This document shows positions 41,689-52,908 of a DNA stretch of 63,204 bases, one piece after another. Made by a program: the position numbers and the translations under genes. This stretch comes from Nitrososphaerales archaeon (GTDB lineage Archaea > Thermoproteota > Nitrososphaeria > Nitrososphaerales > Gagatemarchaeaceae). Location: positions 1 through 63,204 of the forward strand of contig JAJTZB010000008.1 of the NCBI GenBank assembly GCA_032906765.1, read 5' to 3'. Position 1 is the stretch's first letter; every line of letters starts with the position of its first letter. The notes below the pieces were generated by a model, which worked only from the letters and a program-made list of their open reading frames with translations, had not been told where the DNA came from and made no database searches.

Positions 41689-44556
41689 TTGACTGAGCAG
41701 AACGTCTTCGAATTCTTCTCCCCGCCCCTCGTCGAGGCGCTCAAGGAGCGTGGCTTCACTTCGCCGACGGACCCTCAGATGAGGCTCGTGCCCTTGGTGC
41801 GCGAGGGAAAGAACGCACTGCTGATGGCGCCGACCGGGACTGGCAAGACTGAGGCTGCTTTCCTTCCCATTCTGGACAGTATGATCAGGGAGGGGCCGTC
41901 GAGAGAGAAGGGTGTCAAGCTGCTCTACATCACTCCGCTGAGGGCATTGAACAGGGACATGCTCGAGAGGATGCAGTGGTGGTGCAAGAGGTTCGACATC
42001 AGACTCGGCGTCAGGCACGGGGACAGCTCTCAGGCGGAGAGGACGAACATGAGCTACGCGCCGCCCGACATTCTGATCACCACCCCTGAGACATTGCAGG
42101 TACTCCTCGTAGGGAGGAGAATCAGGCTGAGCCTAGCCAAGCTGAGGTGGGTTGTCGTGGACGAGGTCCACGAACTCGCGGAGGACAAGAGGGGGAGCCA
42201 GCTGAGCGTAGGCCTGGAGAGGCTCAGGGACGCGGTCGATGGAGAGTTTCAGGTCGTCGGCCTCTCGGCAACCGTTGGATCGCCCGAGAGGATAGCAGAG
42301 TTCCTCGTCGGCAAAGGGAGGGTCTGCGAGATAGTGAGGGTGCCAGTTGAGAAGAGCCTGTCCCTGAAGGTTGTGGCGCCGAGGCCCACGGCAGAGGACG
42401 AGGAGCTGGCCCAAGCAATCTACTCCTTCCCCGAAGTTGCTGCGAGGCTCAGGACGATACGGGAGGCGGTTGAGAAGTACAAGTCTGTACTGATCTTCAC
42501 GAACACGCGGAGTGAGGCTGAGGCACTCGCAAGCAGGTTCAGGGTCTGGAACCCCGAGTTCCCGATTGGGATACACCACAGTTCACTTTCGAAGGCCACG
42601 AGGGAGGCCGTGGAGAGGAGCCTGAAGGACGGAAGACTTCTCGGGGTCATCTGCACGAGCAGCCTGGAGCTGGGAATCGACATTGGATTCCTCGAGTACG
42701 TCGTGCAGTACAACTCGCCAAGGCAGGTCACAAGGCTGATTCAGAGGGTCGGGAGGAGCGGACACAGGGTAGGTCAAGTCTCCAACGGCGCAATCATAAC
42801 TCAGGATTCGGATGACACACTGGAAGCTGCCGTGCTCTGCAGGAAGGCCGTGAAGGGTGAGCTCGAACCCCTGGAGCCAGTGCTTGCGCCCTACGATGTC
42901 GCTGTCCACCAGGTGGCAGGCCTGCTGGTGGAGCAGAGCAATTGGAACATCGGAGACATCTACGCACTTCTGAGGAGGAGTTACGCTTACTCCGGCATGA
43001 GCATGGAGAAGCTCAAGCGCGTCCTGAACTACATGCAGGAGAGGTACCCAAGGCTTGCCTACTACAAAGAGTCTGACGGGCGCGTCTACAGGGCTAGGGA
43101 CTTGAAGCCTCTCTTCCAGTACTACTTCGACAACCTCTCGATGATTCCCGACGAGAAGCAGTTCCTCGTGCTGGAGGCGGAGAACTTCGTCGGGGTGCTG
43201 GACGAGGCGTTCGTATCCGAATACGGCGAGGTCGGGGTGAAGTTCGTCGAGGCGGGAAGGTGCTGGAAGATAGAGCAGATCTACGGCAACAAGGTCTACG
43301 TCAAGTCAGAGGACGACCCGACGGGAGCGGTTCCCAACTGGGTGGGAGACGAGATACCCGTTCCATACGACGTCGCTGCCGAGGTTGGCATGATCAGGAG
43401 GAGGTACGCAGAGGAGATCGAAGCGGGAAGGGGGGAGGAGTGCGTCGCAGGGCTCTGCGAGTCATATCCTGTCGGCAAGGAGACGATGCTCGAGGCGCTG
43501 AAGGAGGTGGCCGAGCAACACGCAGCCGGCCTTCCGGTTCCGTCGGACAAGCTTGTCACTGTGGAACGGTGGGACAGGTACATCATCATTCAGGCAACGT
43601 TCGGACACAAAGTGAACAGACTCCTCTCAAGGGTGGTGGGTCACCTGATTTCAGAGAAGATTGGGCAGTCGGTAGCTGTCCACCAAGACCCCTACAGGAT
43701 GGTGATCGAGGCCGAAGTGAGCGCCGCGGCTGTGCTCTCAGTTGTCAAGGAGCTCCCTACGATGGACCTGAGGAAGGCCGCTGAGAAGGCCGTCGTGCGG
43801 TCGGGGATCTTCAAGCGGAGGATCATCCACGCAGGCAAGAAGTGCGGGGCCATCTCCAAAGACGCCGACTACGCAAGCGTCTCGATCTCTGGCCTCATAG
43901 AGGCCATGAGGGACACGCCCGTCTACGATGAGGCGATGGATACGATCTTCCGCGACGACTTGGATGTCCAAGGGGCTTCTGCAGTCCTAGAGAGGGTGCG
44001 GACGGGAGAAATCGAGCTGAAACTCCTCCAGTACGAGGGCCTCTCGCCCGTGGCGCGGATCGGCATCGAGGAGATCAGTAGGAGGGGAGAGATAGTCTCG
44101 CCAGAGAGGTTGAGGGCCCTGCTCCGCCAGTCGACGAGGGCGAGGATCATGGAGACATTCCTTGTCGTTGTCTGCACCAACTGCTGGAACTACTTGGAGC
44201 TGAAGAAGGCAGGCGACCTCGAAGAACTGGCCCGATGCCCCAAGTGTGGCAAGGAAGCCCTTGGGCTCTCGACTGAATCCTACGAGAACGTATTCTCTCT
44301 CGCGATGAAGGCGAGGAGCAGGACAGACCTCAGAGGGAGGAGGCTGAAGCAGGTCGAGGCGCTGCGCAAATCGGCCGAGCTTAGGAAGGAGCACGGCCAT
44401 GCCATTGACATGATCCTCGCCGGGAGGAGTATTAGACTGACTGACGCTGCGAACCTTGTTGCGAAGATGGAGAGGGAGGGGAAGGACCTCGTCGACGTCA
44501 TAATCGACGGGGAGCGCGAAGCCCTACGCAGGCGCTACTTTGCCACTACCCCGTGA
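41689..44556 (+). CDS. Lhr-type superfamily 2 DNA helicase, first copy
   Basis: 955 residues. Motif I APTGTGKTEA near residues 46-55, Ia ITPLRALNRDM, Ib TTPETLQVLL, motif II VVVDEVHELAED, III GLSATVGSPE, IV VLIFTNTRSEAEAL, V LGVICTSSLELGIDIG and VI QRVGRSGHR form a complete Lhr (large helicase-related) core. The C-terminal ~550 residues are the Lhr winged-helix and PUA-like-type region, ending with a zinc ribbon CTNCWN...CPKCG. TTG 41689 start. Lhr proteins translocate 3'-5' on DNA in repair. Unlike the second copy, motif V here is uninterrupted. Confidence 0.92.
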   Translation: MTEQNVFEFFSPPLVEALKERGFTSPTDPQMRLVPLVREGKNALLMAPTGTGKTEAAFLPILDSMIREGPSREKGVKLLYITPLRALNRDMLERMQWWCKRFDIRLGVRHGDSSQAERTNMSYAPPDILITTPETLQVLLVGRRIRLSLAKLRWVVVDEVHELAEDKRGSQLSVGLERLRDAVDGEFQVVGLSATVGSPERIAEFLVGKGRVCEIVRVPVEKSLSLKVVAPRPTAEDEELAQAIYSFPEVAARLRTIREAVEKYKSVLIFTNTRSEAEALASRFRVWNPEFPIGIHHSSLSKATREAVERSLKDGRLLGVICTSSLELGIDIGFLEYVVQYNSPRQVTRLIQRVGRSGHRVGQVSNGAIITQDSDDTLEAAVLCRKAVKGELEPLEPVLAPYDVAVHQVAGLLVEQSNWNIGDIYALLRRSYAYSGMSMEKLKRVLNYMQERYPRLAYYKESDGRVYRARDLKPLFQYYFDNLSMIPDEKQFLVLEAENFVGVLDEAFVSEYGEVGVKFVEAGRCWKIEQIYGNKVYVKSEDDPTGAVPNWVGDEIPVPYDVAAEVGMIRRRYAEEIEAGRGEECVAGLCESYPVGKETMLEALKEVAEQHAAGLPVPSDKLVTVERWDRYIIIQATFGHKVNRLLSRVVGHLISEKIGQSVAVHQDPYRMVIEAEVSAAAVLSVVKELPTMDLRKAAEKAVVRSGIFKRRIIHAGKKCGAISKDADYASVSISGLIEAMRDTPVYDEAMDTIFRDDLDVQGASAVLERVRTGEIELKLLQYEGLSPVARIGIEEISRRGEIVSPERLRALLRQSTRARIMETFLVVVCTNCWNYLELKKAGDLEELARCPKCGKEALGLSTESYENVFSLAMKARSRTDLRGRRLKQVEALRKSAELRKEHGHAIDMILAGRSIRLTDAANLVAKMEREGKDLVDVIIDGEREALRRRYFATTP

Positions 44557-45081
44557 GAGGAGCATCGTCATGAGCGTCTTCTCGTCCACCTCTGCCCTCG
44601 TCCTCCAGCCGACGTGAAGCAAGGCCCTGTCATCCTGCTCGAGGTAGCCTCGCTTGACGTAGCGGTCCAGCGAGTACTCGACCCTCCACTTTGGGAACTT
44701 CTCCCTGAGGAACTGCTCAGCCTCCCGCCTGCTCGCCCTCCCCTGCTTGGAGTTGATGAATGCGAGGGTGGCTGCCAAGACCGCCAGGTCGTCTATCCTG
44801 ATGCCGGAGGTCTCGGCATCGCTGATGCTCGGTGGCTCCTTGAACCTCAGCAGGAACCGTGAGGTGTCGTCGGCGCCGTCCGGGCCCTTCACCTCGAAGA
44901 CTTCGAGCCCCAACCCAGAGACGTCCTCCGAGAGGACCTCGATTATCTTCCTGTAGTCCCTGCCCAGGTGCCTCTTGAGCTCCCAACCTTTGACACCGGG
45001 ATTCCTGCTCCTCTGGATTACCAGGATCTGGAAGGCCTTCCTCACCTTTCTCTCGAGTAAAGCTTTGTCTGCCGACTCCAT
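44524..45081 (-). CDS. Winged-helix 'kite' subunit, MAGE/Nse3-like, of an SMC operon
   Basis: 185 residues from the ATG at 45081 (overlapping the kleisin stop, TGATG). Two winged-helix units are visible. The first (about 10-80) has RDYRKIIEVLSEDVSGLGLE and VFEVKG...SRFLLRF. The second (about 95-160) has DDLAVLAATLAFINSKQGRA then SRREAEQFLREKF and SLDRYVKRGYLEQ. This order strongly recalls the MAGE domain of Nse3, in which an LGLEVFEV-like strand is followed by an acidic helix, a GRAS-type turn and a final RGYLE helix. Its 3' end overlaps the 3' end of the first lhr gene by 33 bases. Role inferred: DNA-binding kite of an SMC-kleisin complex. Confidence 0.6.
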   Translation of the reverse strand: MESADKALLERKVRKAFQILVIQRSRNPGVKGWELKRHLGRDYRKIIEVLSEDVSGLGLEVFEVKGPDGADDTSRFLLRFKEPPSISDAETSGIRIDDLAVLAATLAFINSKQGRASRREAEQFLREKFPKWRVEYSLDRYVKRGYLEQDDRALLHVGWRTRAEVDEKTLMTMLLSRGSGKVAPA

Positions 45082-45839
45082 CAGGACCCACCCGTCACCG
45101 ACACTGCAACGGACCTCGGAACCCCGGTAGCCTTCTCGCTGAGGGCGACGGTCCAGATCTTCCCCGTCAGCGGGTCTGTCTTCAACGAAGCCTTTCCCTC
45201 GCTTATCACGAAGGCGAGCAGGTACGCCCGCACAACCTTCTTCTCGAGAGTCTCCGCCTCGATGAACTCCCTGTAGTCGATCCACTCGCCGTTTGACTTT
45301 TGGAGCAGTTCATCCTGGAGCGCATTCAGTCTGCTCTCGAAATCCTCCTGGGTGAAGACCTTCATGTCTATCAAGCCGCTGAGGTCGATAGTCCCAGGCA
45401 TCACGCCGTAGTTGCCGAACTCGGACTTGAACCTCTCGGACATCGGCGTGAGGTCCCTCCAGTACACGAAAGCCTTCTCAAGACCCTTCGGGGAGATCTG
45501 GTCGACCTGCGCGACCGGGTGCCAGCTCTTCACGAACGCTTCCACGAGTTCGTCCCTTGTGAGGAGCTTGACCTTCAGCTGTATCAGCAACGGGTCGATG
45601 TACAGTGAGGATGCCCTGTGTTTCAAAAACTCGTTCTGAAGCCTGACTATCTGGGCGAGTTCGAGCATTGCTTCCGAATCTAGCAACAGGTCTTCGAGGA
45701 ACTTCCACTCGGGAAGAAGCTTCTTGAGAATCTCTATCTTCTCTATAATATCAACTTCGAAGGGATTGGCGCTACTGGACTTTACAGACTCGCACAGGGA
45801 GATAACTCGCAATAGGTCTTCAAGACTCTTCTTGTCCAA
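45081..45839 (-). CDS. Kleisin-like subunit of an SMC operon
   Basis: 252 residues. The N-terminal part (about 25-95) has the helical pattern of ScpA/Nse4-type kleisins: FEVDIIEKIEILKKLL, then LDSEAMLELAQIVRLQNEFL and DPLLIQLKVKLL. The C-terminal ~75 residues predict a winged helix (EKKVVRAYLLAFVISEGKAS then LKTDPLTGKIWTVAL), where kleisins contact the SMC head. The middle is a less conserved linker. The gene begins one base from the SMC stop and its stop overlaps the next start, so the three are one transcription unit. Family assignment rests on pattern and context. Confidence 0.6.
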   Translation of the reverse strand: MDKKSLEDLLRVISLCESVKSSSANPFEVDIIEKIEILKKLLPEWKFLEDLLLDSEAMLELAQIVRLQNEFLKHRASSLYIDPLLIQLKVKLLTRDELVEAFVKSWHPVAQVDQISPKGLEKAFVYWRDLTPMSERFKSEFGNYGVMPGTIDLSGLIDMKVFTQEDFESRLNALQDELLQKSNGEWIDYREFIEAETLEKKVVRAYLLAFVISEGKASLKTDPLTGKIWTVALSEKATGVPRSVAVSVTGGS

Positions 45840-45840
45840 G

Positions 45841-47853
45841 CTACTTCGCCTTCAGCTCCCTTATCTCAGAGGCACCGTGGACTGCCTGCACCGTTATCAC
45901 GTGCGCGCTCTTGTCGAAGACTGTCATGATTGAGGGCGTGATCACCATGTACTGCGACGAGTCCCTCTGCCTCATCTGGGCAAGGATCATCTTGAACATC
46001 GCCTCCCTGTTCTTTGGGTCCATGTGGATGTCGAACTCGTCCAAGGCTCGGATCGGCGAGACTATCCTAGCCTGGAGGGAGAGTATGAACGCCATCAGCG
46101 CGACAGAGCGCTCGCCGCCGCTCTGAGTGAAAGGGTCCAGCGCGGTCGGAGCGCCTCCTCGGAAGCCGACGTAGAGTTCGATGCCCGCCTCTTCGATGTC
46201 TGCGCCCGCGTCGAACCTGATGAAGCCTGTGGCATCGGATGCGGCCAGGACAGCTTTGTAAGGGGGGTCGACGGACTCGATGAGATTGTTCATCGCGTCA
46301 ATCCAGACCTTCTTCCTAGTCTGCAGCTCCCCGAGAAGCGCCTTCTTGTTCTCCTGGAGTTGCGCCAGCCTGACTTTCAGCTCCTCTATGTTGCCCGAGT
46401 AGTCGTTGTAGATCTTCTCCGCGTCGTCGGGTATGTCCTGCATCTTCTGTAGGTGCGCCGAGACGAGCTTCAGCTCCTCGGAGACCTCGTACGGCTGTCT
46501 CTGCGTCTCAATCCTGGCACCCGCTTTTTCGATATCCGGTCTCAGCTTCTCCAGCTCATCTCTGTACTCCCGCGCGGTCCTCTCGAGCTCCCTGAGTTCC
46601 GATTCGTTGTTCTTGATCCTGAACGAGAGAACCTCGAACTTGACCCTGAGCGAGATGTAGCTCTCCATTGTCCTCTTGATCAGCTCCTCGGTCCTGCCTA
46701 TCTCGGTCTGGAGGGACGAGACCTCCTTGTCGAGGTCTGGCTTCCTTCTCTCGGCGTCCTCCTCGGCTGCCTGACTCTTCTTCGATATGTAGTCAACCAG
46801 CTCCTTCAGCCTCTTCGCTGTCTTCCCGGGAGCGATGCCGAGGAGCTCGTCGACAGATTTCGAGAGCCCCAGGATGTCCTCCTTCATCCCGCTGAACGCG
46901 ACCCTGCTCGCCTCGTCCTTGGCCTTCTCGCTCTCTGCCCTCACGAGCGCGCCGTAGAGCTTCCTCAGCTCGACCTGCTTGTCAAGAAGCGTCTTCTGGC
47001 CTTTCTCGGCATCCGCTGCGACCTCAGTCTGCTGCGACCTCAGGTCCTCAAGCGTCCTGATCTTCGATGTGATCTTCTCCTCGACTGACTGGAGCGACTT
47101 CGACAGCTTCGACTCCGTGCTCCAGAGAAGCTCCTTCTCGAGAAGGGACCTGTGCTCCATCTGCTTCCGCTTCTCCAGGTACCTGTCGTAGATTTGCTTC
47201 CAGTATTCCAGGGCCTGGTTGGCGTTTTCGATCAGCTGGAGGAGGGAGCTCTCTTCCCCCACGAGGCCGCTCAGCTCCTGCTCGGCCTGGAGGATTCTCT
47301 CCCTGTACTCCGAGAAGCCGACCGCCTCCTCGACCATCTTCAGCCTCTCCTGCGGGGTGACTGCGCCTAGTTCCTCTATCATCCCCTGGTGCATGATGAT
47401 CAGCAGGTTGTCGGGGTTGATGCCGAACTCGTGGAGGAGCCTCACCACCTCGCTCTTGTCAATCTCCTTGTAGTCGGCCTCGAACCAATAGGAGCCGTCC
47501 TTCCTGAGATAGCGGCTCAGCATGAAAGTCTCGGACTTCGAGTATGGGATGGGCCGTCTCCCGTTCTTGGAGGAGTTGTCAAACACTAGAGACACCCTCG
47601 CTATGTCCTTCCCCCTGCGTATCAGGTCAGAGAGTTTCCTCGACCTCTCGGTGTAAGCTTGGCCGAAAGCAACGGAGATGGCCAATAGGATGGACGACTT
47701 GCCGGACCCGTTGGGACCTACCACCAGGTTGAGTCCCTCCCTTAGCGGTATCCTTGCATACTCGTAGCTCATGAAGTTCTCCAGGATGATCTCCTTCACG
47801 GAGGTCTGAGGCAGCTCTCTCTCCTTCGTGACCTCCTCTGTACTCTTGGACAA
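45841..47853 (-). CDS. SMC-family ATPase with Smc6-like head
   Basis: 670 residues. Head half 1 has VVGPNGSGKSSILLAI (Walker A near 46-54). Coiled coils run from about 165 to 335 and from 345 to 530 around a very short middle (about 330-350) with no zinc-hook CxxC, so it is not Rad50, and no room for a classical SMC hinge. Head half 2 has the signature FTQSGGERSVALMAFILSLQ (near 575) and Walker B region IRALDEFDIHMDPKNRE (near 602), followed by YMVITPSIMTVF. LDEFDxxMDxxNR and the I/LTPxxM motif are those of eukaryotic Smc6. TTG start, TATA TCTAAATGC about 31 bases upstream, inside an inverted repeat. Confidence 0.85.
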   Translation of the reverse strand: MSKSTEEVTKERELPQTSVKEIILENFMSYEYARIPLREGLNLVVGPNGSGKSSILLAISVAFGQAYTERSRKLSDLIRRGKDIARVSLVFDNSSKNGRRPIPYSKSETFMLSRYLRKDGSYWFEADYKEIDKSEVVRLLHEFGINPDNLLIIMHQGMIEELGAVTPQERLKMVEEAVGFSEYRERILQAEQELSGLVGEESSLLQLIENANQALEYWKQIYDRYLEKRKQMEHRSLLEKELLWSTESKLSKSLQSVEEKITSKIRTLEDLRSQQTEVAADAEKGQKTLLDKQVELRKLYGALVRAESEKAKDEASRVAFSGMKEDILGLSKSVDELLGIAPGKTAKRLKELVDYISKKSQAAEEDAERRKPDLDKEVSSLQTEIGRTEELIKRTMESYISLRVKFEVLSFRIKNNESELRELERTAREYRDELEKLRPDIEKAGARIETQRQPYEVSEELKLVSAHLQKMQDIPDDAEKIYNDYSGNIEELKVRLAQLQENKKALLGELQTRKKVWIDAMNNLIESVDPPYKAVLAASDATGFIRFDAGADIEEAGIELYVGFRGGAPTALDPFTQSGGERSVALMAFILSLQARIVSPIRALDEFDIHMDPKNREAMFKMILAQMRQRDSSQYMVITPSIMTVFDKSAHVITVQAVHGASEIRELKAK

Positions 47854-47960: not shown

Positions 47961-50900
47961 TTGAGTCCAGCTGACGGGTTCGAGCATCTGACTGGTCCCA
48001 TCAGGAGCATGCTGTTGGAGTCCGGCATCACTGAACCCACGCCCCCCCAGAGACAAGCCTGGCCATTCGTAGCCGCGGGGGAGGACGTCTTGATAGTCGC
48101 CCCGACGGGCTCGGGCAAGACCGAGGCGGCGATACTCCCGCTTCTGGGGAAGCTCGCCTCAAGAGGCGACCGCGAGGGAATCTCCCTGCTCTACATCACT
48201 CCGATGAGGGCTCTCAACAGGGACATGCTGAAGAGGCTGGCGCTTTGGTGCTCGAAGCTCGGCCTCACGGTCGATATCCGCCACGGCGACACCCCGCAGT
48301 CGCAGCGGACCAGGCAGGCGACCCACCCCCCAGACGTCCTAGTTACCACGCCAGAGACACTCCAGGCTGTGCTTCCCGGCCGCAGGATGAGGGATAACCT
48401 GAGCCACCTCAAGGCAGTAGTGGTCGACGAGCTGCACAACCTCGTGGAGAGCAAGCGGGGGGGTCCAGCTGTGCGTCGGGCTCCAGAGGCTCAGGAGGGT
48501 CGCAGGGGAGTTCCAGCTCGTCGCCCTTTCAGCGACTGTGGGGACGCCCGAGGTCGCCGCCAAGTTCATCTTCGGGGACAGGAAACACAGGGTCGTCAGG
48601 ACGGAGGTGCCGAAGGAGTTCAGGTATGCAATAGAGTACCCGGTCCCCGACCCCTCCAACCAGTCCGTCGCGAAGGAGGCGTTCGCCGCCCCCGACCTGG
48701 CCGCAAGGCTGAGCAGAATCAACGGGCTTGTCGAGAGCCACACGGCCACGTTGATCTTCGTCAACAGCAGGACTCTCGCTGAGATGCTCGGGGAGAAGCT
48801 GGCGAGGCTGAGGAAGGACGTCGGCGTCCACCACGGCTCGCTGCCCAGGGAGGAGAGGGAGAGGGTCGAACAGGACTTCAAGTCAGAGAAGCTGAAGGCC
48901 CTCGTCTGCATTCCCGAAGATGAACTCATTGTCACATCTAGGGGGATAAAGCAGGCCAAAGACGTGAAAAATGGAGATGAAATTCTCTCCTACGACATTC
49001 AGGCGATGAAGACGACGTTCAAACCTGTTGTTCGCAAGTATGAAAGAGTAGCAGATGGATTCTTGCAGATAAAACACGAACTTGGAGTGCTGAGGATTAC
49101 GGCTAATCATCCTGTTCTGTGTTTGGGTCCAGCTGGTCTCACGTGGAAGCCCGCCGGGGAAGTCCAAGTTGGAGATGCCATGGTGACCGTCGCGAAAATG
49201 CAGGGGAAGGATGTCCCAACTCACCAACTGATTGATTATCCGAATCTGTTTGTCAGGAATTCAGCGATAAGGGCCCTCGGTTACGAACCTCCGGGAAGGG
49301 CCCGTTCGAAAGTATCGAGATTCAATTCCCTGAAGCCAATCATGAGAGAAACCGACCTCGCCAAGCTGACGGAGTTCAACACCACGCAAGCTAGGTACAA
49401 TCTTCCGGTATGGGTGGATGCAAGGCTAGGCTACCTCCTAGGATTTCTGAAGTCAGATGGCGACAGGCATATGCGTTTCTTCAGTTCCGACCCACGTAAG
49501 CTTGCCAAAGTTCAAGCGTTGCTGTCAGACATTTACAGCGGCACGCCTTACCGTGGCCTGAACAGTGAATCAGGTTTCCCAACCAACAGGCCCCGGTTGG
49601 TGCTACAAGCGCAATCCAAGCCGCTCGCAAGCCTCTTTGGGAACATGTGGAACACACTACCACTTTCGGAGAATGTTGTGGCAGCGATTCTTGCGGCCTA
49701 TCTAGATGGTGATGGATGCATTGTGGTCAGAGACAGTACAAGGTTGGAACAAATCCAATTCGTGACTTTCAATCCTTCTAATCGCGAGTACCTGATTTAC
49801 AGTTTGCTGGCCCTCGGTTTCAAGCCAAAACTGTGGAAGGCAAATGGCGTTTCTGGAACTGGTTACTGCATCAGCATAGTCTATAACGATGAAAAGAGTA
49901 GATTCCTTGCTCTTGTCAAAGACTTGTCTCTCAAGGCAGCAGGATTACAGGTGCGGAATTTCGGCAACAAGCCAACCACCTACTACGGTCTGGGTAGTTA
50001 CATCAAAGAGAGACGTAAGAGACTTGGGATCTCGTCATATAGGCTTTGGAGAGAGATGGGATATTCGACGAAGTACGAAAACCAGAAACGCGGGGTAACC
50101 AAGCAGGTGCTAGCCGGGCTTAACAGTTATCTTCACTCCCCTCTCATCGAGTCTTTGATTCTTGGCAAGTTTGGCATATCGCAAGTAGGTTCGGTAAGCT
50201 CAGTGAAAGCGCGGACGAACGTCGTGAATTTCGAGGTAGAAGGTACTCAGGACTATGCTGTCACGGGAGTCGTGACCCATAACTGCACCAGCACGCTCGA
50301 GCTGGGGATAGACATCGGGACGGTCGACCTCGTGGTCCAGTACATGTCGCCGCGCCAGGTGACCTCGCTCGTCCAGAGGGTCGGGAGGAGCGGTCACAAG
50401 CTCGGCCGAATCTCAGAGGGCGTGCTGGTGACGGTGTCAGCGGACGACATACTCGAGTCGTCTTCGAGCATAGCCGCTGCGAGCCAGGGGAGGATTGAGC
50501 CGACGAGGCCGTACGCAAACAGCTTGGACGTGCTGGCGCACCAGATTGCAGGCTACCTGATGGACCTCGAGACGATGGAAACAGACGCTCTCCTCAGAGA
50601 GATTAGGTCCACCACCCCATTCTCTGGTCTCACCGAGGAGGCGTACCAGAGGACAGTGAGGTATCTGGCAGAGCTGAGAAAGATAGCCGTCGACGGATCT
50701 ACGCTGAAGCGCACGAAGATGACGAGGGACTACTACTTCGAGAACCTGTCGATGATACCCGACGAGACTAGGTACTTGGTGATTGACGTCTCCACGAACC
50801 AGACTGTCGGGATTCTTGGGGAGGAGTTCGTTGTGCTGAGGGCGAAGGTCGGGGTCCACTTCATCTGCAAGGGCAGAATCTGGCAGATAGAGCAGGTCGC

Positions 50901-52182
50901 TGACGACAGGAAGATCTACGTCACGCCAGTCGAGGATCCACTCGCGGCTGTTCCGGGATGGGACGGCGAGATGCTCCCAATCCCGTTCGACCTCGCCATG
51001 GAGACGGGGAAGCTGAGGCGCAAGATATCCGAAGGTCTGGACGGGGGTGAGGAAGCACTCGAGATTGTTCTGAAGCAGATTCCTGCCGACGCACCGGCGA
51101 AGAGCCTGGTAGTCGACCAGATAGCTGAGCACAAGAAGATGGGCGCCCCGGTCCCTTCTGACAGACTCGTTCTCCTGGAGGGATTCGACAAGTACCTGAT
51201 CCTGCACCTCTGCTTCGGCGAGTCGGTCAACAGGACGTTCGCCTACGTCTTCGAGGAGATACTGTCGAGGCAAGGCCTCGTCAGGATGTGGTGGCTCGAC
51301 GGCTACAGGATTCTCATGGAGCTCACGGAGGAGACTGAAGACCTCGACTTGAGGTCTCTTGCCAAGGAGTTGATGGAGATTACACCCGACGAGCTCGAGC
51401 GGACGTACGCAGTCGCCGCACAACGGAACTTCCCGTTCCCGACCAGGGTGAAGCAGGTGGCGGAGAGGTTCGGCGCCCTCAAGAGGGGCAAACTCATCGC
51501 GCATCCGAACCTCTGCTCTCTACCCACGAGGTTCGAAAGAACACCCATTTTCGAGGAAGCGCTCCAGGAGACGGGGAGAGACCTGTTGGACATGAAGAGG
51601 GGGAAAGAAATTCTGAGGCTTGTGTCCGCTGGGGAGATCACTGTTGAGGTATTCCAGGCGGGCGATAGGCCGACGCCGATTGCCTACAGCCTGCTCTACA
51701 GGTACCTCGAGGTCCCCGAAGCTGTGGCACCCGACTCCCTTGGGAAGTCGTCGTACCAGAGGATGAAGGCGAGCATATTCGGGACAGAGGTCGGCCTTGT
51801 ATGCGTGAAGTGCGGGTTCGACCAGGGGACTTCGGCGGTTGTTGACATGCCGGAGGAGCCTCGCTGCAGGTCGTGTGGGTCAGGACTGCTCGTCCCGTGC
51901 TATTGGGGGACGGCCAAGATCGTTGACCTTCTTCAAAGGCGCGCGGCCAAGAGGGAGCTGAACGAGGAGGAGAGAGGCGAGCTGGCGAAGGCGAGGAGGG
52001 CTGCGGACCTTGTCCTCTCATACGGGAAGAAGGCCGTGGTCGCCCTGACGGTCTACGGCATAGGACCGCAGACTGCATCCAGAATACTGGCAGAGATGCA
52101 GGAGGACGAGGAGAACTTCTACAAGAGCCTCCTGGAGGCCAAGATAAGGTTCGTCACCACCAGACAGTTCTGGTCGGACTGA
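47961..52182 (+). CDS. Lhr-type helicase, second copy, with intein and a one-base frameshift
   Basis: Start TTG 47961, 27 bases after a TATA. Helicase motif I APTGSGKTEA, Ia ITPMRALNRDM, DELHNLVESK and, after the shift, LSATVGTPEVA, VNSRTLAEML, CTSTLELGIDIG and QRVGRSGHK complete the Lhr core; the C-terminus ends with a zinc ribbon CVKCG...CRSCG and a coiled region. The two halves are in different frames: in the G7 run 48457-48463, one G fewer would restore KRGVQLCVGLQRLR. Removing the intein (48907-50283) leaves a protein of about 950 residues, like the first copy. It is either a sequence error, a slippage site or a broken gene. Confidence 0.85.
48907..50283 (+). other. Intein with LAGLIDADG endonuclease in Lhr motif V
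   Basis: 459 residues. The intein begins with Cys in CIPEDELIV (block A) and has block B as TANHPVLC at about 65-72. LAGLIDADG helices are LGYLLGFLKSDGD near 174 and ILAAYLDGDGCIV near 261; then come NFEVEGTQDYAV (block F) and VVTHN followed by the extein Cys (block G), so splicing residues are intact. It is inserted between LKALV and CTSTLELGIDIG, exactly at the conserved Cys of helicase motif V. The first Lhr copy has the same site empty. The intein DNA is clearly more A/T-rich than the helicase. Confidence 0.93.
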
Positions 52183-52224
52183 CCCGAAAAATCATTTAAC
52201 ATGCGATGGGCGGGGCAAGGCGGA

Positions 52225-52908
52225 TTGGTCCTAGCGGGCAAGGTCTTCCTCGTCAGGGAGAAATACGACATGGATGTCCTCGCAGACAAGCTGAAGTCCT
52301 TCAGAGTCGAGACGGAGACGAGCGTCGAGGGGCAGGAGTTCAAGCTGCTTTCCGAGATCAAGGACTTGTCGGCGGGCAGTAACAGCCTCGAAGGGAATTT
52401 CTTGTTTGACAGCGTCTTCGTTGTCAGCCACAGGGGGAAGCCGATGCCGGTCCCGAGGACATACGACGCTCCATTCGCGTTCGACGTCTACAAAGACAGG
52501 CTGTTCCTGACCGTCTACGACAAGAAGAACAGGGCGAACAACATAGCGAACGAGATGAGCAAGACCATCTTCCTCGCCCTGGGACAGGTTGTGGAGGCCA
52601 GGATAGACCCGGAGACGATGAAGAAGTTCCACGAACAGAACTTCGAGGACACAAAAATTATTTTTTACGACCAGGTGGACTTGCCCAACATTTCGAAACT
52701 CTCTCTCTACGGGGCGGAACTGGGCAACACATCACTGTATTCGGATTATCTCACACACGGGAAGTTATGGTATGTTGTATTCCGTAGCAAGGCATACGGA
52801 TACATCGTCGGCGTGACGAGGAACGCTGTGGTAACAATCTTCAGCAGGTTGGAGCTCCCCGAGTTCAAAACCTACATTAGGGGAGAGATAATTCCGCTAG
52901 TCGCATAG
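52225..52908 (+). CDS. Unknown protein downstream of the second Lhr
   Basis: About 227 residues from TTG 52225, 30 bases downstream of a TATA (ATTTAAC, about 52192-52198); the frame also has an ATG at 52201 but that lies within the promoter. The protein is mixed alpha/beta, cytosolic, with no motifs known to me; NEMSKTIFLALGQVVEARID and KLWYVVFRSKAYGYIVGVTR are notable stretches. It sits between the helicase and a COG1407 phosphoesterase with a one-base gap to the latter, so it is probably part of a DNA-repair cluster. Confidence 0.6.
   Translation: MVLAGKVFLVREKYDMDVLADKLKSFRVETETSVEGQEFKLLSEIKDLSAGSNSLEGNFLFDSVFVVSHRGKPMPVPRTYDAPFAFDVYKDRLFLTVYDKKNRANNIANEMSKTIFLALGQVVEARIDPETMKKFHEQNFEDTKIIFYDQVDLPNISKLSLYGAELGNTSLYSDYLTHGKLWYVVFRSKAYGYIVGVTRNAVVTIFSRLELPEFKTYIRGEIIPLVA

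Follow-up and report, generated by a model that had tools for sequence, protein, structure and literature searches.

An archaeal operon encoding a hingeless Smc5/6-like ATPase with Nse4-like kleisin and MAGE/Nse3- and Nse1-like kite subunits

We analyzed a stretch of 63,204 nucleotides from a Nitrososphaerales archaeon (hereafter the window), which is contig 8 of a 1.77 Mb genome, 96% complete. On its minus strand, from position 47853 to 44524, three genes encode a structural maintenance of chromosomes (SMC) ATPase of 670 amino acids (aa), a kleisin of 252 aa and a kite protein of 185 aa. A first-pass annotation, made from the sequence alone, had described them as a compact Smc5/6-like operon, and a check of the open reading frames (ORFs) places the genes, the SMC length and the junctions of zero to one base as it had given them. 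One base lies between the SMC stop and the kleisin start, and the kite ATG at 45081 has one base in common with the kleisin TGA. The mechanically listed kite ORF of 253 aa starts inside the kleisin gene, in a different frame; the actual kite is the 185-aa protein. The features of the operon are:

45841..47853, minus strand: Smc5/6-like SMC ATPase, hingeless, 670 aa, TTG start
47695..47718, minus strand: Walker A motif GPNGSGKS, residues 46-53, invariant in the family (S50 being S or A)
46108..46122, minus strand: ABC signature SGGER, residues 578-582, inside TQSGGERS; invariant, TQSGGER being also present in yeast Smc5
46030..46041, minus strand: end of Walker B (DEFD, residues 605-608), with the Smc6-like MDPKNR after it (family alignment, PDB profile search)
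46729..46851, minus strand: coiled-coil apex, about residues 335-375, a short variable tip at the usual hinge site (gapped columns, arm lengths, no SMC_hinge)
45081..45839, minus strand: Nse4-like kleisin, 252 aa, TTG start; C-terminal winged helix at about residues 150-235
44524..45081, minus strand: tandem winged-helix protein (kite) resembling MAGE/Nse3 and Nse1, 185 aa, ATG start

The window ATPase matches SMC_N with an E-value of 1.1e-35; since the gene order is also kept in relatives, the operon is not a chance arrangement. In alignments of the SMC family to which it belongs, the ATPase motifs are intact and invariant: GPNG(S/A)GKS, Q156, SGGER, DEFD or DEYD, and MD..R. The annotation had read QSGGERS, LDEFDxxMDxxNR and ITPxxM as motifs specific to Smc6. 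This holds for the DEFDxxMDxxNR box of the C-terminal head, which is Smc6-like (human Smc6 LDEFDVYMDMVNR); the signature TQSGGERS of the same head is Smc5-like (TQSGGERAVS in yeast Smc5), and ITP is found in yeast Smc5 as well, so that these two motifs belong partly to Smc5. Because a Smc5-like signature and a Smc6-like Walker B box are combined in one head, the label "Smc6-type" is too narrow, and the mixture is of the kind expected of a relative older than the split between Smc5 and Smc6.

The relationship with Smc5 and Smc6 was examined by profile search and by phylogeny. When the SMC family profile (A3) was compared with all PDB sequences, the ten best distinct matches were human and yeast Smc6 and Smc5 (9.2e-46 to 4.6e-38). 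SMC2 (2.1e-33) and bacterial-type Smc (4e-31) came at lower ranks, and Rad50 was far below (1e-7). The window genome's canonical SMC (1188 aa), taken as a control, retrieved prokaryotic Smc and SMC2/3/4/1 first, with Smc5 near the end (3.9e-7). A maximum likelihood tree was built on the N- plus C-terminal SMC heads; the human SMC2 and SMC3 sequences were checked at every residue against PDB chains, and the SMC3 C-terminal head came from the PDB alignment. It separates the family, Smc5 and Smc6 from canonical archaeal SMC, SMC2 and SMC3 with a support of 100/99, and the grouping stays (95/86) when the genome's own Rad50 is added. Ranking and phylogeny thus agree with the annotation. The head tree is compatible both with Smc5 and Smc6 as sisters (p-AU of 0.449, in the approximately unbiased (AU) test, for the tree constrained in this way) and with their branching within the archaeal family; the eukaryotic branches are long, which calls for caution with the tree as a whole. 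The window SMC scores 39.5 bits against the NCBIfam model of ASRP (coalescin/Sph, NF045487), for a cut-off of 300. In the window genome the Smc5/6-like SMC is single, the other SMC-type proteins being the canonical SMC and Rad50; two different SMC proteins able to form a heterodimer of the Smc5/6 kind were not found there.

The annotation had further stated that the ATPase has almost no hinge and no zinc hook. SMC hinges are about 150-180 residues in size. The span between two conserved residues of the arms, W244 (N-terminal arm Trp) and R447 (C-terminal arm Arg), ranges from 112 to 232 residues across members, and the alignment columns of the apex are gapped and unconserved. As a span of 112 residues cannot hold a hinge, the short members have none. 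In the Pfam scan SMC_hinge has no match in the window SMC, whereas the canonical SMC of the genome does match solved hinges. Likewise no CxxC is present in the arms of the window SMC, and among relatives there is one exception, so both statements are borne out, the second for the window protein and nearly all relatives. Without a hinge, we infer that dimerisation goes through the heads, the kleisin and the kite, or through the short apex tip. The exception comes from Bathyarchaeota (SMC family member L171, 2941-6060, plus strand). This protein of 1039 aa has long arms and, close to their apex, the sequence MCDKCG (residue 551), which resembles a zinc hook; it is a Smc5/6-like head on Rad50-like arms, and the family kleisin was not found in its genome. 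In a small genome, a canonical-type SMC (L237, G457:C22:33954-36251) lies in a 779-aa frame that aligns only to residues 2-420 and 890-1179 of a canonical SMC, and from its sequence it too seems to be hingeless.

Short arms and a missing hinge are also features of RecF and RecN, which raises the alternative that the ATPase is a Rad50/RecF-like sensor of DNA ends accompanied by two unrelated winged-helix regulators. The CxxC apex of L171 and the AU test, which keeps the topology uniting the family with Rad50 (p=0.17), point in the same direction. In the A3 search, however, Smc6 is ahead of Rad50 by about 38 orders of magnitude, and the best tree unites the family with Smc5/6; the window genome has a separate Rad50 of its own, with a zinc hook, and the matches of the two partners are to Nse4 and MAGE/Nse1 and not to Mre11 or regulators. 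We regard this alternative as barely credible.

To the kleisin the annotation had given its name from pattern and context, and this assignment is now carried by family profiles. The four best PDB matches of a first profile of 17 members were Nse4/EID3, at E-values of about 0.01-0.03, and the Pfam family Nse4_C was recognized in 8 of the 17. With a set enlarged to 32 members from the whole phylum, Nse4_C is found in 21/32 (best 5.6e-9); the best four PDB matches are all Nse4/EID3, and yeast Nse4 is reached at 9.5e-7. Nse4 matches the C-terminal winged helix; at the other end of the kleisin, the first 70 residues show weak similarity to the ScpA N-terminal domain in the PDB profile search (0.043), as expected of a kleisin. 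A Foldseek search with the AlphaFold2 (AF2) model gave as best match Nse4 from the holo-complex of yeast Smc5/6 (E 0.03), then C-terminal domains of cohesin kleisin and ScpA. PF02616 (ScpA) and PF04079 (ScpB) have no match among the operon proteins.

In the kite family (n=33) the two commonest Pfam matches are MAGE (8/33, best 2.7e-4) and SMC_Nse1 (5/33, best 4.1e-4). The AF2 model of the kite has a mean predicted local distance difference test (pLDDT) score of 80.7 and consists of two winged-helix-like halves. In a Foldseek search against 350,542 PDB chains, seven chains had E<=0.001, all from entries containing MAGE/Nse3, from 6.7e-6 (a MAGE-G1 complex) to 8.5e-4; JetB, another Nse1-Nse3-Nse4 chain, MukE and ScpB came next. 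A second PDB profile search with more members gave a MAGE match no better than E=0.16. The annotation had assigned the protein to the MAGE/Nse3 type, unlike ScpB: the separation from ScpB is confirmed by profile and by fold, but in Pfam the kite is equally near Nse1. A single kite gene was detected in the window genome at E<=1e-3, and a lone kite that resembles Nse1 as well as Nse3 is the state expected before these two diverged.

The same three kinds of subunit, in a single-copy, vertically inherited and chromosomal system, would also suit a condensin-like complex, that is a shortened relative of the canonical archaeal Smc-ScpAB, with a role in folding or segregating chromosomes and not in repair. 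ScpA was not found by PF02616 in the window genome. Moreover, a canonical-SMC query recovered only the Smc5/6-like SMC at E<=1e-8 in genome G118 (99% complete) and nothing in G452, so the operon may encode the sole SMC-kleisin complex of such genomes; in G118 and G452 it may be the sole SMC complex. This explanation is nevertheless unlikely: head, kleisin and kite are all nearer to Smc5/6, Nse4 and Nse3/1 than to Smc-ScpAB, the absence of a hinge excludes a large ring, and in the window genome the canonical 1188-aa SMC coexists with the operon, with an ScpB gene adjoining it (G000:C1:54221-58914).

The distribution of the three genes was then considered. In regions from the same order, they stand together in 23-24 of 24 (one region begins inside the operon). 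A further 20 regions represent other families in the phylum; kleisin and kite adjoin in all 20, with the SMC gene too in 19. An independent scan of the genome collection with the SMC profile yielded 80 loci: all three genes are present in 65, drawn from several archaeal classes, two genes are followed by the contig end in 3, and the SMC stands alone in 12, several of which are on short contigs. The kleisin is away from the SMC in genomes labelled Methanosarcinales or Methanophagales and in a few others; where it does not lie beside the SMC, the family kleisin was found elsewhere in 8 of the 9 genomes checked. Across the phylum, the kleisin is present in 158/397 genomes and the kite in 114/299, as a rule in one copy each, and every kite-positive genome is also kleisin-positive. 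Neither kleisin nor kite is present in f10, a large family within the same order whose genomes (1.2-1.8 Mb) are nearly complete. The kleisin was also found in 21 of 28 small genomes of another phylum, that of L188; although L188, which lies in a 1.1-Mb genome, is labelled Hodarchaeaceae, we take this group to be Hadarchaeota and not Asgard. In two of its genomes the C-terminal half of the kleisin profile also matches weakly at a second place (G483:C1:325012-325317, E 5e-5; G484:C25:979-1281, E 8e-6), perhaps, judging by sequence, another kleisin. Overall the operon looks like a chromosomal system that is vertically kept.

A complex made of SMC, kleisin and kite recalls JetABC, and in a PADLOC scan the ATPase weakly matches JetC, LmuB and other defence ATPases, so that a role in defence against plasmids or viruses, of the Wadjet (JetABCD/MksBEFG) or Lamassu kind, has to be weighed. 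Synteny that is conserved over whole classes, not patchy, speaks against it, as does the fold search, which places MAGE/Nse3 above JetB. The operon has no nuclease gene (JetD/Toprim), and PADLOC and the neighbourhood revealed neither the JetD nuclease nor the JetA/B/C assignments typical of Wadjet/MksBEFG. PADLOC was negative for the kleisin family and for the window's kleisin and kite, and no kite relatives were found on the viral contigs searched; on these two null results a defence or viral origin was rejected, and we consider it very improbable.

The genes that surround the operon are:

41689..44556, plus strand: Lhr-type helicase, convergent, with a 33-bp overlap with the kite 3' end; conserved neighbour
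47961..52182, plus strand: second Lhr-type helicase (transcribed away from the SMC gene), with a frameshift near 48460 and an intein at about 48928-50283
52201..52908, plus strand: uncharacterised 235-aa protein, whose homologues elsewhere are usually divergent and directly beside the SMC gene

A convergent Lhr-type gene lies downstream, at <=1 kb from the kite, in 46 of the 100 loci with enough sequence, the 3' ends of the two genes mostly overlapping or abutting. These loci include genomes labelled Nitrososphaeria, Methanomethylicota, Caldarchaeum and Thermofilales and the L188 group. Archaeal Lhr shows a preference for unwinding fork DNA and a Hel308/RecQ-like behaviour in a genetic assay (PMC7437997). 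A survey of Lhr neighbourhoods with TIGR profiles reported no gene conserved beside aLhr1 or aLhr2 across all archaea (PMC8301817). A second Lhr gene at such a position was seen only in the window's own family; its frameshift may be either genuine or an assembly error, and its intein of about 450 residues has Hint and LAGLIDADG matches. Upstream of the SMC gene, 52 of 130 loci, spread over several archaeal classes, have a gene for a member of a family of 230-aa proteins; it is almost always divergent and in many cases adjoins the SMC gene. The window member (52201-52908) is displaced from the SMC gene by the second Lhr gene. Pfam, NCBIfam and PDB gave no match for this family, which is a candidate for a further partner of the complex. 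No Nse2 gene was found beside the operon, the search being limited to the neighbourhood and not genome-wide.

In its SMC head clade, its Nse4_C-type kleisin, its MAGE/Nse1-type kite and the signature and Walker B boxes of Smc5 and Smc6, the archaeal set resembles the eukaryotic Smc5/6. It differs by having one SMC and one kite instead of two of each, no hinge and short arms, and by the absence of Nse2/Nse5/Nse6 beside the operon. Since two defining features of Smc5/6, the heterodimer and the hinge, are lacking, the name "Smc5/6-like" is preferred to "Smc5/6". Archaeal "SMC5/6-related" SMCs were reportedly named by Yoshinaga and Inagaki in 2021. In a tree published for such proteins they group with SMC5 and SMC6 with a maximum likelihood bootstrap percentage (MLBP) of 100 (PMC9389158). 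The SMC of the operon has the same place, apart from canonical SMC, and very probably is a member of that clade. The passages of that source devoted to these proteins treat the SMC alone, with no mention of partners, operon, missing hinge or Lhr neighbour. One review traces SMC5/6 back to an archaeal "SMC5/6-related" protein and names no archaeal partners (PMC10003631), and archaeal Smc complexes have been described as generally lacking a kite (PMC7055376). The "minimal archaeal relative of Smc5/6" of the annotation therefore stands as to the homology of all three subunits, but archaeal SMCs of this kind were known already. In the full-text literature searched, many subscription papers and preprints lying outside it, we found no report of archaeal Nse4-like or Nse3-Nse1-like partners, of the hingeless build or of the link with Lhr; priority for these findings is thus not proven.

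Smc-ScpAB and the archaeal binary Smc-ScpA (PMC7055376) share with the operon the SMC-kleisin-kite logic and the weakly ScpA-like kleisin N-terminus; they have a canonical head, a hinge and an ScpB-type kite or none. MukBEF and Wadjet JetABC are kite-type SMC complexes too, whose JetB and MukE rank after MAGE/Nse3 in the kite fold search; their very long hinged MukB/JetC, kleisin dimerisation and JetD nuclease have no match in the operon. ASRP/coalescin and Rad50 are archaeal SMC-superfamily ATPases without SMC hinge, but they have a zinc hook and neither kleisin nor kite.

Taken together, the three subunits are homologous to Smc5/6, Nse4 and Nse3/Nse1, the ATPase motifs are intact, gene order and the Lhr neighbour are kept, and hinge and zinc hook are missing. 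We estimate at roughly 0.75 the probability that the products of the operon form a minimal Smc5/6-type complex of archaea, a homodimeric, hingeless, ATP-gated DNA clamp for chromosomal or fork maintenance. The homodimer, the assembly and its stoichiometry, the trimeric contacts, the clamp and the function are what we infer beyond these homologies. Two copies of the one hingeless SMC would be bridged by the Nse4-like kleisin, which would carry the MAGE/Nse3-Nse1-like kite, probably as a dimer. When ATP is bound, the two heads would engage, and DNA resting on them would be enclosed by kleisin and kite in the "clamp" compartment that Smc5/6 is known to form; ATP hydrolysis would release the DNA. 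In Smc5/6 the DNA clamp is formed mainly by Nse3 (PMC10512200). With no hinge or long arms, and hence no large ring, the complex most likely acts as a DNA clamp gated by ATP, or as a holder over short range, rather than as an extruder of long loops. The Lhr neighbourhood and the homology to Smc5/6 point to replication-fork or recombination intermediates as substrates: the complex would hold forked or branched DNA during repair coupled to replication, acting with the fork helicase Lhr that is encoded next to it.

Several observations weigh against this proposal. The clamp and repair roles are put forward by analogy with Smc5/6. The topology joining the family to Rad50, though 5.9 log units worse than the best tree, is still accepted by the AU test. 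Taken alone, the kleisin and the kite of the window fall under every Pfam cut-off and gave nothing significant with Pfam, NCBIfam or PADLOC, so that both assignments rest on family profiles. The E-values for MAGE and Nse1 (about 3e-4) are modest given 33 tries. The kleisin model is poor, with a mean pLDDT of 62 (about 70-85 in the C-terminal winged helix), and the whole-chain TM-scores of the kite are low (0.38), which makes the relative placement of its two domains uncertain. Finally, the Lhr gene is not adjacent in most Bathyarchaeia, so that a partnership with Lhr would not be obligatory.

The operon could, more tentatively and with a little less than an even chance, be the surviving archaeal form of the Smc5/6 ancestor as it was before both duplications, with one SMC (not yet split into Smc5 and Smc6), one Nse4 and one kite (not yet split into Nse1 and Nse3) in a hingeless clamp working with Lhr. 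If this were true, the hinge would have been gained or regained toward eukaryotes, or lost in these archaea. For the origin of Smc5/6 and of Nse4, Nse1 and Nse3, the three-subunit archaeal set is a small outgroup that can be reconstituted. As a natural hingeless SMC-kleisin-kite complex, it would also allow tests of whether clamping, loop extrusion and topological entrapment need a hinge or long arms. The three-gene set offers a testable picture of Smc5/6 before eukaryotes.

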